The notes below the pieces were generated by a model, which was not told where the DNA came from, made no database searches, and saw only the letters and a list, made by a program, of their open reading frames with translations. This document shows, one piece after another, positions 52,110 through 56,585 of a stretch of DNA of 64,000 nucleotides (positions are counted from its first letter, which is position 1; each line of letters opens with the position of its first letter). The position numbers and the translations under genes are program-made. The stretch is from Gluconobacter vitians (GTDB lineage Bacteria > Pseudomonadota > Alphaproteobacteria > Acetobacterales > Acetobacteraceae): assembly GCF_015244565.1 (NCBI RefSeq), contig NZ_JABCQG010000012.1, forward strand, positions 1 through 64,000, in the 5' to 3' direction.

Positions 52110-53675
52110 TCAGCCGCGGAAGAGGCTGAGCAGGGTGGAGGACTGCGAGTTTGCAATCGACAGCGACTGGACAGCCAGCTGCTGCTTCGTCTGAAGCGAG
52201 GTCAGCTTGGCGCTTTCCGCTGCCAGATCGGCGTCCGTCAGGGCGCCGACACCCGTCGTCAGGGCGTCAGACAGGCTGGACGTCGTGGTCTGCAGGTTCG
52301 AGACCGTCGTGGTGGAATAACCGATCGTGGAAGCCGTCCGCGTCACGCTGGAAATAGCTGCCTGAACGACAGCACTGACAACAGATGCCCCGGTGACGGA
52401 TGTTGCCGCGTTAGAACCTGTGAACGCACCCGCCGAGACGGTACCCAGGTTCGTGCTGGTTGCATCAATGGAATTGCCAGCAATCGTCAGGGTGTTGTCG
52501 GAATCGCGGGACACACCGAAGCCCTGGTACTCCATGGCCTGCGTCATCAGATCGACCTGCTTGACGCTCTGGGCACTCGACGAGCCGCCCGTGGCACTGA
52601 GGGAGGAGGCGGACGACATGTCGACGTCCGTCACAACGGTCTTGGCCGTGACATTGCCGTTGGCATCAAATGCCGTATTGGCGGTGAAGACGGAGTTGCC
52701 GTTGCCGTCCTTGGACTGCACCAGGCTATCTCCGTTGGACAGGGAATAGGTGATCGATCCGTCCGATGCTGTTGTCTGGGATTTGATTGTGACGTCTGAA
52801 GAGTCGCCTGCTTTCAATGTGCCGTCTGTTTGCATTGTAAATGCGGCAGTGACGCCATCCGAACCGCCCTCAGTAGTGGGAGCTTTGCTGAAAGCAGCGC
52901 CTACCATGGCCAGAGCCGTCGTTTGGCTGTTATTGGTGGTGGTCGTGCTGCCGGAAGTCGTAGACTTGCTGTCAGCGACAAAGTTGTATGTGACAGACGG
53001 ATTGGACGCACTGACCGTACCACCTGTTCCGGCTGCAGCTTCATTCTTCAGCTGAAGAACGCTCTGGGAAGTCGGCGTAGTACCGTCACTCGTCAGTGTA
53101 TTGGAAGCGCTGGTGCCCAGCGCCAGCGAGGAGCCGGACATTTCCATGCTCAGGTTCGTCAGGCCAAGACCGGCGGACGTCATGTTGAAGCCGTTCTGGG
53201 TGAACATCGTGCCCTGGGAGTCCATGGCGGTGGACAGGGTCGTGTAGGTCGTGCCGTTGCCCGTCTGGCCGGACAGCAGGTTCACGCCCTGGAACTTTGC
53301 ACCTGCAGCAGCGGAGTCGATGGCGGACAGCGTCTGTGTGATGGCGTCGTTCAAGGTCGAGTTGTTGACGCCCGTGGTGTTCGTGCCGAGAGTCGTGGCC
53401 AGGGACTGCAGGGAATCCGAGATGCTCGACAGGCCCTTCGTTGCCGTATTCAGCACCTGAGCGGAGAACTGAAGACCCGTGGAGACGCCCGACAGGGTCG
53501 AGATCTGGGCGGTCATGTTCTGGGCAATGGAGTACATTGCGGGATTGTCAGACGCCGAGTTGACCGACTTGCCCGTCGAGACCGCATTTTCGGTCTTGGT
53601 CAGGTCAGATGTCGTCTGGCTGAGGCTCTGGAGTGCGGCCATTGCCGCAGTGTTCGTATTAATTGACAATGACAT
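52110..53675 (-). CDS. Flagellin
   Basis: 521 residues. The N-terminal D0/D1 coiled region ([53 protein letters not shown]) and the C-terminal part ([54 protein letters not shown]) are classical flagellin ends. They flank a long Ser/Thr/Gly-rich variable region (about 190-430). It forms the flagellar filament. The variable part is visibly less GC-rich than the ends. It is divergent from the radical-SAM gene at 53854 and followed by flaF. Confidence 0.96.
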
Positions 53676-53756: not shown

Positions 53757-53853
53757 AAAAAACCTGCCCGAAATAACGGAAAACCGGGAAACAACTGGTT
53801 AAATTCACGTTTTCTCTTGCGCTCCATACTTCGGAACGAAATAAGAACACGCA

Positions 53854-55086
53854 ATGAAGAAATCACTCTCCCAGCGCCTGGCGATTCTGTCCGATGCGGC
53901 GAAATACGATGCGTCCTGCGCGTCGAGCGGCTCCGGACGCAGGGACTCGGCCAAAAGCGGGGGACTGGGATCCACGACGGGAAACGGCATCTGCCATGCG
54001 TTCACGCCGGACGGGCGCTGCGTGTCGCTGCTCAAGATCCTGCTGACCAATTTCTGCGTATATGACTGTGCCTACTGCATCAACCGCTCGTCCTCGAATG
54101 TGGAGCGCGCGCGGTTTACGCCTGAGGAGGTCGTGTGGCTGACGCTGGAGTTCTACCGGCGCAACTGCATCGAAGGGCTGTTCCTGTCTTCGGGCATCAT
54201 CCGCTCGTCCGATCACACGATGGAGCAGCTCGTGCAGGTGGCGCGGGATCTGCGGCTGAAGCATGGCTTTAGGGGCTACATCCATCTCAAGACCATCCCC
54301 GATGCGTCTCCGCGCCTGCTGGAAGAAGCGGGGCGCTATGCGGACCGTCTGTCGATCAATGTGGAAATGCCGACCGTCGCCGGGCTGGAGCAGTATGCGC
54401 CGCAGAAAAAGGCGGGCGGTATCCGGCAGGCCATGGGTGAAATGCGTCTGAAAATCGATGCGGGCCGGGAGCGCAGCCATACCGGCCGCCGGGCTGAGCG
54501 CTTCTCGCCGGGCGGGCAGAGTACGCAGATGATCGTGGGAGCTGATGCGGCCTCCGATCAGGATATTCTGGCCAGCAGCGCCAATCTTTATGGCTCCTAC
54601 GGGCTGCGGCGGGTCTATTATTCGGCCTTCAGTCCCATTCCCGACGCTTCCGCATTGTTGCCAGCGAAAAGCCCGCCGTTGCAGCGTGAGCACCGGCTTT
54701 ACCAGGCAGACTGGCTGTTCCGGTTCTATGGATTTGCGTTTGGAGAGTTGACGGCCGGTCGCGCGGACGGGATGCTCGATCTGGAGCTGGACCCCAAGCT
54801 GGCCTGGGCGCTGGACAACCGGGCGCTGTTTCCGGTCGATCTGAACCGGGCGTCGAAGGAAATGCTGCTGCGGGTGCCGGGGCTGGGGGTCAAGGCTGTG
54901 GCCGCCATTCTCAGGGCGCGGCGGCATCAGGCGGTACGGCTGGAGGATCTGGCGCGGTTGAATGTCTCCATCCGCAAGGTACGCCCGTTCGTGCAGACGC
55001 CGGGCTGGAGCCCCGCCCGCCTGACCGATCGACACGATCTGCGCAGCCTGTTCAGCCCCGCGCCGCAGCAGATGAGCCTTCTGTGA
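53854..55086 (+). CDS. Radical-SAM DNA-associated protein (UDG-linked, SPL-like)
   Basis: 410 residues. The 4Fe-4S SAM-binding motif C68-x3-C72-x2-C75 is in NFCVYDCAYCINRSSSN. It then has HLKTIPDASPRLLEEAGRYADRLSINVEMPT (radical-SAM barrel) and a C-terminal helix-hairpin-helix near 330-360 (LNRASKEMLLRVPGLGVKAVAAILRARR), which suggests DNA contact. This matches the family known as rSAM_link_UDG, found next to UdgX genes, and is related in style to spore photoproduct lyases. The downstream UdgX fusion overlaps it by 4 bases. The reaction is unknown. Confidence 0.9.
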   Translation: MKKSLSQRLAILSDAAKYDASCASSGSGRRDSAKSGGLGSTTGNGICHAFTPDGRCVSLLKILLTNFCVYDCAYCINRSSSNVERARFTPEEVVWLTLEFYRRNCIEGLFLSSGIIRSSDHTMEQLVQVARDLRLKHGFRGYIHLKTIPDASPRLLEEAGRYADRLSINVEMPTVAGLEQYAPQKKAGGIRQAMGEMRLKIDAGRERSHTGRRAERFSPGGQSTQMIVGADAASDQDILASSANLYGSYGLRRVYYSAFSPIPDASALLPAKSPPLQREHRLYQADWLFRFYGFAFGELTAGRADGMLDLELDPKLAWALDNRALFPVDLNRASKEMLLRVPGLGVKAVAAILRARRHQAVRLEDLARLNVSIRKVRPFVQTPGWSPARLTDRHDLRSLFSPAPQQMSLL

Positions 55087-56585
55087 CGCGGTATGTCCTG
55101 ACGCTTGAGGACAGTGCCGCGTTTGAACCCTGGCGGAAGATGGCACGGGCGGCTTTGCAGCGCGCGATCCCGCCCGAAGCCCTCGACTGGCGCATCCGGG
55201 GTGGGGAGACAGATCTTTTCGGCCAGATCACGGATGATGGCGCTGGACTGGAGGCGCTGACAGCCCTGCCTGTCGTGAAAACCGTAACCTTGCGAGCGTC
55301 CTGCATCGCGCTGCTGCGGGACCTGCTGTGCCATTCCGATCCCGCTCGGTTCGCGCTGGCCTACCGGATCGTCTGGCGGATGCAGGGCAATCCGCATCTG
55401 CTGGAAGTGGTGACGGATGCCGACATCGCCAGGGCGCGGGTCATGGTGCGGCAGAACCGGGATGACTGCCATAAGATGGCGTCTTTCCTCCGCTTCCGGG
55501 AAGAACCGGTCCAGCAGGGCGAAGGACAGGACAGGAGGCGGCGACGGTTCCTCGCCTGGTTCGAGCCGCAGCATCATATTCTCGAACGCATCGCCCCGTT
55601 CTTCTCGAAGCGCTTTACGGACATGGACTGGATGATCCTCACCCCGCGCGGATCAATCCGCTGGGATGGGAAAGAGCTGGTGTGCAGTCCGGAGCCCTGC
55701 GAGCGGCCAGAGCTGGATGATGGGTTCGGGGAGCTGTGGGACACTTATTATGCCTCGACCTTCAATCCGGCCCGTGTGCGCACGAAAGCCATGCGTCGGG
55801 AAATGCCCGGCCGTTACTGGAAGAACCTGCCGGAAACCCGCCTGATCCCGCAGCTCGTTGCTGGAGCCGAAGCACGGGTGCGGGCGATGGCGGAACAGGA
55901 ACTCCAGCCCGCCCCGGCCTTTCATGAGCGCCTGCGGGCCCGTGAGCAGCTTCCGGCCGAACCGATGGCGGATGTGGCGGAAAATCTTGAGGGTCTGGCC
56001 GCTCAGATCCGGACCTGTACGGCCTGTCCGCTGCACTGCTCGGCGACGCAGGCGGTTGTGGGAGAGGGGCCGGCAGACGCGCGCATCATGGTCGTCGGAG
56101 AGCAGCCGGGCGATCAGGAGGATCTGGCAGGGCGCCCCTTCGTCGGTCCGGCAGGACAGCTTCTACACGCGACGCTTGGAGAGGCCGGGGTCGATCGTGG
56201 CGCGCTGTATCTGACGAACGCCGTCAAGCATTTCCGCTTCCGTCTCCAAGGCCGCCGCCGCATCCATCAGAGCCCGGATGCAGGGCATGTGGCGGCCTGC
56301 CGTCCCTGGCTGGAGCAGGAAATTGCACTGATCCGTCCGAAACTCATTGTCTCGCTGGGTGCCACGGCGCTCAGGGCGCTGGATGGTCCGGGCATGGCGA
56401 TGTCGGATGTCCGCGGGACCTCATGGACCGTGGGAACTGGCGAAAATGCCGTCCGGCGTCTGGCACTCGCCCATCCATCCTGGCTGCTGCGGCTTGGGGA
56501 AGGGGCGCAGGGGGACAGTGAGCGACGGAACTTCGGTGAGGGTCTCTCCCGTCTGCGGGACTTTCTGGATCAGCCAGGGGCGTAA
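55083..56585 (+). CDS. DUF4130-UdgX fusion: suicide uracil-DNA glycosylase
   Basis: 500 residues. Residues about 1-260 are a DUF4130/SAM_7_link-type domain (RVWRMQGNP-like core, ILTPRGSIRWDGKEL). Residues 300-500 are a UdgX-type uracil-DNA glycosylase: CTACPLHC (312-319), active-site GEQPGDQEDLAG (339-350), KHF (382-384) and R-loop RRRIHQSP (391-398) with H395, the residue that in mycobacterial UdgX forms a covalent bond with the abasic DNA. ALAHPSWLL (461-469) is the late motif. It overlaps the radical-SAM gene. Confidence 0.92.
   Translation: MTRYVLTLEDSAAFEPWRKMARAALQRAIPPEALDWRIRGGETDLFGQITDDGAGLEALTALPVVKTVTLRASCIALLRDLLCHSDPARFALAYRIVWRMQGNPHLLEVVTDADIARARVMVRQNRDDCHKMASFLRFREEPVQQGEGQDRRRRRFLAWFEPQHHILERIAPFFSKRFTDMDWMILTPRGSIRWDGKELVCSPEPCERPELDDGFGELWDTYYASTFNPARVRTKAMRREMPGRYWKNLPETRLIPQLVAGAEARVRAMAEQELQPAPAFHERLRAREQLPAEPMADVAENLEGLAAQIRTCTACPLHCSATQAVVGEGPADARIMVVGEQPGDQEDLAGRPFVGPAGQLLHATLGEAGVDRGALYLTNAVKHFRFRLQGRRRIHQSPDAGHVAACRPWLEQEIALIRPKLIVSLGATALRALDGPGMAMSDVRGTSWTVGTGENAVRRLALAHPSWLLRLGEGAQGDSERRNFGEGLSRLRDFLDQPGA

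Follow-up and report, generated by a model that had tools for sequence, protein, structure and literature searches.

A radical-SAM and DUF4130-UdgX gene pair of Gluconobacter vitians, a candidate SOS-induced module for DNA-lesion processing

To our knowledge, the biological purpose of UdgX, a protein in use as a uracil-DNA tool, is unsettled. A gene pair in the stretch of Gluconobacter vitians DNA analysed here (contig NZ_JABCQG010000012.1, positions 1 to 64,000, hereafter the 64-kb window) brings this question to a single locus: what does a UdgX domain do when it is fused to a DUF4130 domain and its gene overlaps that of a radical S-adenosylmethionine (radical-SAM) protein? We give even chances to the reading that the pair is an SOS-induced two-protein module that processes DNA lesions, with the radical-SAM protein and DUF4130 as its core and UdgX as an optional end step. 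The two genes and their parts lie as follows (aa, amino acids; ORF, open reading frame).

53854-55086, + strand: radical-SAM protein of 410 aa, ATG start, family TIGR03916 rSAM_link_UDG (ORF, NCBIfam and Pfam)
54055-54078, + strand: CxxxCxxC radical-SAM cluster motif, C68/C72/C75 in NFCVYDCAYC (present in 123 of 123 homologues)
54835-54927, + strand: helix-hairpin-helix region, residues 328-358 of the radical-SAM protein, probable DNA contact (Pfam HHH_3, under the curated cut-off)
55083-56585, + strand: DUF4130-UdgX fusion of 500 aa, GTG start (ORF and NCBIfam)
55116-55838, + strand: DUF4130 / TIGR03915 domain, fusion residues 12-252 (NCBIfam, Pfam and invariant residues)
55842-56549, + strand: UdgX / TIGR03914 domain, fusion residues 254-489 (NCBIfam; Foldseek to UdgX of Mycobacterium smegmatis)
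56265-56267, + strand: H395 in RRRIHQSP, counterpart of H109, through which M. smegmatis UdgX crosslinks to DNA (motif alignment)

All three NCBIfam families are matched far over their cut-offs, namely TIGR03916 'rSAM_link_UDG' by the radical-SAM protein (549.9 bits against 343.5, profile positions 1-392 of 415) and TIGR03915 'SAM_7_link_chp' and TIGR03914 'UDG_fam_dom' by the fusion protein (187.5 against 112.25 and 284.9 against 189.95 bits), while in Pfam the domains Radical_SAM, DUF4130 and UDG lie above cut-off. By these matches the locus is a member of families already named for the linkage of a radical-SAM protein to a uracil-DNA glycosylase (UDG), and which NCBIfam describes as putative DNA repair. 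Both ORFs are on the + strand and overlap by 4 nucleotides (nt; GTGA, 55083-55086), and as the two genes also share a strand in all 38 surveyed loci they very probably form a single operon. Most of what an earlier note had read from this sequence thus holds, including the three cysteines, the 4-base overlap and the joining of DUF4130 to a UdgX domain with H395. Its C-terminal helix-hairpin-helix of the radical-SAM protein is likely and falls short of a formal assignment, with an HHH_3 match whose score (23.3 bits, expectation value (E) 6.8e-5) lies under the curated Pfam cut-off of 27 bits.

The evidence for a core of two proteins comes from their distribution. We scored 249 Pseudomonadota genomes at the NCBIfam cut-offs for the three families and found TIGR03916 in 39 of them, TIGR03915 in these 39 and also in G200 and G217 (41 in all), and TIGR03914 in 38. 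DUF4130 therefore accompanies the radical-SAM protein in 39/39 genomes, compared to 2 of the 210 genomes without it (Fisher p = 1e-43). The link of the radical-SAM protein to UdgX is strong but not strict: 29 genomes have both, 10 only the radical-SAM protein, 9 only UdgX and 201 neither (Fisher p = 1e-21). Among radical-SAM genomes, UdgX is found in 26/28 of the window's class and in 3/11 outside that class. The genomes with the radical-SAM protein and DUF4130 and no UdgX over cut-off anywhere are G023, G046, G074, G082, G099, G183, G190, G196, G225 and G237; six of these (G046, G082, G099, G183, G196, G225) have weaker UDG-family matches, and since the UdgX scoring took at most 11 candidates in some genomes, including G196, a UdgX might have been missed there. 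In the control genome of Bacteroides ihuae, too, TIGR03916 and TIGR03915 were matched and TIGR03914 was not, while the Caulobacter vibrioides control matched all three. Because DUF4130 is present in every radical-SAM genome while ten of the 39 have no UdgX over cut-off, we infer that the radical-SAM protein and DUF4130 are the core and UdgX an optional part. The pair described in the earlier note is real and conserved across genomes, more strictly for DUF4130 than for UdgX.

The arrangement of individual loci was followed in sets of 30, 38 and 80 (L001-L030, L042-L079, L094-L173), which overlap in genomes or species, L075 and L130 for example lying on contigs of equal length, so that their rows are non-independent. 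UdgX is fused in-frame in 26 loci of the 38-locus set, as in the window, and absent from 10; in the remaining two the frame is disrupted (L046) or the contig runs out (L070). The gaps between the radical-SAM and DUF4130 genes are mostly a few nt, with 2.8-3.0 kb in L048 and L071. The 80 loci nearest to the window, the best 80 of at least 590 confirmed ones, have DUF4130 in 79 cases (in the exception, L144, only 114 nt are left downstream) and the fusion in 72, three of these fused frames being short (L095, L136, L161); the closest radical-SAM relative among them is that of Gluconobacter sp. P1C6_b (L094, 99% identity). In four further loci, from Acinetobacter, Fusobacterium, Phocaeicola and a phage-labelled faecal scaffold (L090-L093), the radical-SAM gene adjoins DUF4130 and the 6-kb flanks hold no UdgX; DUF4130 of the first three is also over the NCBIfam cut-off. 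Some loci hold extra genes between the radical-SAM protein and DUF4130-UdgX, judged from their translations by eye: a short ORF of 158-197 aa, hemerythrin-like (HHE-type), in L069, L071 and L158, and an opposite-strand HigBA-like pair together with a nucleoside-deaminase-like ORF in L125. In L083 (genome G071) the UdgX frame starts with no more than the final 35 residues of DUF4130, a footprint left by the loss of the remainder.

Upstream of the pair lies a putative operator of the SOS response.

53834-53848, + strand: LexA (SOS) box GAACGAAATAAGAAC, a direct repeat of the form GAAC-N7-GAAC typical of Alphaproteobacteria; a gap of 5 nt separates it from the start codon of the radical-SAM gene

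An exact box (for the window's class GAAC-N7-GAAC or GTTC-N7-GTTC, for other classes CTG[TA]-N8-[AT]CAG) is found within 200 nt upstream of the radical-SAM gene in 35/38 homologous Pseudomonadota loci, or 36/39 with the window, as well as in 75 of the 80 nearest loci and 28/30 of the 30-locus set, against 0.19% (alpha-type box) and 0.99% (E. coli-type box) of background windows in the 30 loci. The loci without an exact box are L047, L061 and L079 in the 38-locus set and L095, L134, L146, L164 and L170 in the 80-locus set, of which L079, L095, L146 and L170 have a box with one mismatch. Since alpha-type boxes cluster before the start codon (63 of 102 begin 15-22 nt ahead of it, 40 of those at exactly -17), the box may overlap the promoter and the message may be leaderless. 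The motif alone is little proof because such boxes also occur elsewhere, with three exact copies in the window against 1.59 expected and 121 in the whole genome against 21 for the reversed pattern; it is position and conservation that carry the argument for LexA. Ahead of the organism's own lexA gene, GAACCTATAAGGAAC stands 87 nt from where the family match begins. In the 300 nt before the recA match the N7 type is absent even when one mismatch is allowed, and only a GAAC-N6-GAAC occurs. We infer that the pair is under LexA/SOS control and would be induced by DNA damage. The independent regulation that the earlier note thought probable is supported by this box, which is conserved across the surveyed loci. 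The neighbouring flagellin-like ORF (52110-53675, minus strand) is indeed divergent from the pair, with 178 bp between the start codons. A different palindrome, GTCTCA-N5-TGAGAC, stands at -39 of the radical-SAM gene in L047, L134 and L164, all without the usual LexA box; nowhere else in the 1.29 Mb of loci searched does it occur, L134 and L164 are from Xanthomonas and Pseudoxanthomonas, and the palindrome is a possible lineage-specific operator.

The UdgX half of the fusion keeps its active-site motifs. UdgX proteins are recognised by a Gln in motif A, an R-loop KRRIH with R107 and H109, and motif B, and H109 crosslinks DNA (PMC10359453). In the fusion these motifs are intact as GEQPG, with both its Glu and its Gln, RRRIH, the equivalent of the KRRIH R-loop that contains H395, and HPSWLLR, which fits the HPS..LR pattern. 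The equivalent of H395 is present in 29/30 aligned UdgX-bearing sequences, the exception being the frame-disrupted copy L046. With H395 and the motif A Glu present, the protein is predicted to be capable of a covalent bond to DNA after uracil excision. An AlphaFold2 model of the fusion (71 sequences; predicted local distance difference test, pLDDT, 90.9; predicted template modelling score, pTM, 0.61) aligned in its UdgX half to M. smegmatis UdgX in Foldseek with 46% identity over about 200 columns and a root mean square deviation of 2.0.

In the radical-SAM protein, four residues are conserved in addition to the cysteines of the cluster motif.

53917-54021, + strand: C22 (53917-53919), C47-H48 (53992-53997) and C56 (54019-54021), probable second metal site (122 of 123 homologues)

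They are all kept in 122/123 homologues and all missing together in the sole exception, L089 from Gemmatirosa, whose protein scores 302.3 bits against the TIGR03916 cut-off of 343.5 and in whose 13-kb locus no DUF4130 was detected. These residues probably form a second metal site, either an auxiliary Fe-S cluster or a structural zinc. The model of the radical-SAM protein (52 sequences; pLDDT 84.3, pTM 0.81) is poorly predicted at residues 23-44 (pLDDT <50), as might be expected if this region takes its order from a metal that the prediction does not include. Folds that it resembles include MgmA, HydE, the pyruvate formate-lyase (PFL)-activating enzyme, biotin and lipoyl synthases and viperin, at template modelling scores of 0.3-0.4 by query length. 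A search of plasmid-labelled records aimed at more proteins of the L089 type matched 158 records, equal in number to those matched with the pair's own radical-SAM protein.

What DUF4130 contributes can be gauged from copies that have no radical-SAM partner. Two DUF4130-UdgX genes (L080 and L081, in G200 and G217) have a LexA box upstream and no radical-SAM gene, and retain 27/27 and 23/27 of the DUF4130 invariant residues, respectively. The genome of G. vitians itself encodes a second UdgX.

C2:173521-174783 (L082:3022-4284, L239:7522-8787): second UdgX of the same genome, with a DUF4130-like N-terminus (E 3.7e-14)

No radical-SAM match was found in the 9-kb and 16-kb stretches around this paralogue, and the region between -300 and +150 nt relative to its start holds no exact LexA box. 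Of 60 Acetobacteraceae genomes searched, 9 others encode full-length relatives of it; the box is absent in 10/10 paralogues, and no radical-SAM match occurs in the 5-10.5 kb around the relatives. While 118 DUF4130 proteins encoded beside the radical-SAM gene keep on average 26.7 of the 27 invariants (one keeps 16), the ten paralogues keep 7-17. The own copy keeps 7, a count that varies with the alignment, as H130 and R137 are kept in one and not in others. A158, F174, F227 and N228 are kept in none of the ten and E161, Y222, P229 and E251 in one, whereas P188 is kept in all, T187 in eight and P250 in nine or seven depending on the alignment. As the paralogues lose these invariants and yet keep the six UdgX residues checked (10/10), part of the conserved surface of DUF4130 would seem to serve the partnership with the radical-SAM protein and not UdgX.

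The same erosion would also suit a maturase, i.e., a radical-SAM protein that modifies DUF4130, for instance at an invariant Trp, Tyr, Arg or Glu, after which DUF4130 acts on DNA. The top folds of the radical-SAM model do include protein-acting enzymes, MgmA and the PFL-activating enzyme, and the invariants are nearly complete beside the radical-SAM gene and partly eroded in the paralogues without it. We nevertheless consider this unlikely, as the probable helix-hairpin-helix points to DNA and L080 retains every invariant without a radical-SAM protein, even though the loss there may be recent.

For the SOS-induced lesion-processing module we envisage the following course. DNA damage would remove LexA from the promoter of the pair, and the radical-SAM protein would be held on DNA by its own helix-hairpin-helix and by the DUF4130 domain, where it could perform 5'-deoxyadenosyl-radical chemistry on the damaged base, the second metal site serving as auxiliary cluster or structural zinc. 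The fused UdgX might then excise a uracil-type base, which could be the lesion itself or what the radical step makes of it, and stay covalently on the sugar via H395, shielding the site until strand repair. More tentatively, and as something possible rather than probable, the radical-SAM protein and DUF4130 could constitute a class of radical enzyme not characterised before, with two metal sites and members in several phyla, whose action on DNA would be to reverse or rewrite a damaged base. UdgX would then have been added by fusion, chiefly in Alphaproteobacteria, to cut out a uracil-type product and cap it covalently.

Several observations weigh against this reading. Judging by L080 and L081, DUF4130-UdgX may act without the radical-SAM protein, and the erosion of DUF4130 is partial, with 5/10 paralogues keeping at least 12/27 invariants. 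The contact of the radical-SAM protein with DNA rests on a helix-hairpin-helix match under its cut-off, no DNA-acting radical-SAM enzyme is among the best 50 of 1174 Protein Data Bank (PDB) folds that Foldseek returned for its model, and the covariation of the second metal site hangs on the one outlier L089, which is thin evidence. Nor was a fold relative of DUF4130 recognisable in the Foldseek search with the whole-fusion model: nearly all of the best 50 of 589 PDB and best 50 of 353 viral matches, given without aligned ranges, are UDG-superfamily proteins, polymerases or unnamed, and a profile search of solved sequences with the fusion gave matches in the UDG half and one at chance level (E 0.29).

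The earlier note suggested that the radical-SAM protein may process or release the lesion or the trapped protein, which here would mean releasing UdgX or processing its crosslink to DNA. The operon and the fusion link the two, and in the window's class UdgX is nearly constant among radical-SAM genomes; however, this role is disfavoured as the main job of the family because 10/39 genomes have the core and no UdgX over cut-off (even if six of these have a weaker UDG-family match), 9/38 UdgX genomes have no radical-SAM protein, and the second UdgX of the same genome likewise stands without one. We therefore regard it as improbable, with a possible secondary role where UdgX is fused. A slender chance goes to a damage-tolerance or mutagenesis device, in which the pair, with SOS polymerases, rewrites thymine or another base or helps to tolerate abasic sites; the SOS-type boxes upstream would suit it, as would a published inference from gene neighbourhoods, in which the linked protein is a 'predicted mutagenesis-related enzyme' and thymine modification is suggested (PMC3765255).

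An anti-phage defence module, for which copies on 158 plasmid-labelled records (some chromosome-sized) and 10 phage-labelled ones might speak, has scarcely any chance given a lineage-type LexA box upstream and no PADLOC-DB family for either protein at E ≤0.1, no search for defence genes in the wider context having been made. Thus, of the 'repair or defence pair' of the earlier note, the repair role is supported, by the LexA box and the family names, and the defence role is not. The 10 phage-labelled records with a radical-SAM relative include 8 unannotated faecal scaffolds, 11 such records have a DUF4130 relative, and scans of viral contigs gave one locus and two loci, of which a pair lie on one and the same contig. 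A phage origin was rejected, the PHROG matches being weak (E 4e-4 and 9e-6), as was an RNA element, with no Rfam match at gathering scores in the window.

If the usual partner of UdgX is an SOS-induced unit of radical-SAM protein and DUF4130 that also exists alone, the purpose of UdgX becomes a testable question, namely which lesion this unit handles and whether what it yields is a substrate of UdgX. Few DNA-acting radical-SAM enzymes are known, and another that carries a second metal site would, if true, be of interest to enzymologists. We take COG4277 to be the family of the pair's radical-SAM protein.

Among known systems, the association of UDG genes with a gene of this type is already in print, the linked protein being termed SplB-like (PMC3765255). 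Spore photoproduct lyase (SplB), like the pair's protein, belongs to the radical-SAM enzymes with ties to DNA repair and the SOS response, but differs from it in both sequence family and fold as far as the listed matches go, as it is neither among the 10 NCBIfam matches nor in the best 50 of the 1174 PDB matches, and was rejected as a candidate. A two-gene COG1573-COG4277 UDG operon under LexA has been described from Verrucomicrobia, Alphaproteobacteria and Bacteroidetes and was proposed to remove misincorporated ribonucleotides (PMC8565304); the passages of that paper on the operon agree with our locus in a UDG gene, a COG4277 gene and SOS control, and are silent on UdgX crosslinking, DUF4130 and the function of the COG4277 protein. 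M. smegmatis UdgX (PDB 6ajo, 6iod, 8iie) shares the identity and signature motifs given above, but its crystal chains of 205-229 residues are too short to hold a DUF4130 domain, and the main text of two UdgX papers contains neither 'radical' nor 'operon' (PMC10359453; PMC10776899). In the open-access literature, most subscription papers being outside this scope, we found no biochemical study of the radical-SAM protein or DUF4130. From the NCBIfam families TIGR03916, TIGR03915 and TIGR03914 nothing material differs, although their descriptions lack the second metal site, the LexA box and the division into core and optional part. The radical-SAM-UDG association and its SOS control were thus already known; added here are the survey of the conserved LexA box, the core of radical-SAM protein and DUF4130, the residues of the second metal site, and a UdgX paralogue without a radical-SAM partner.

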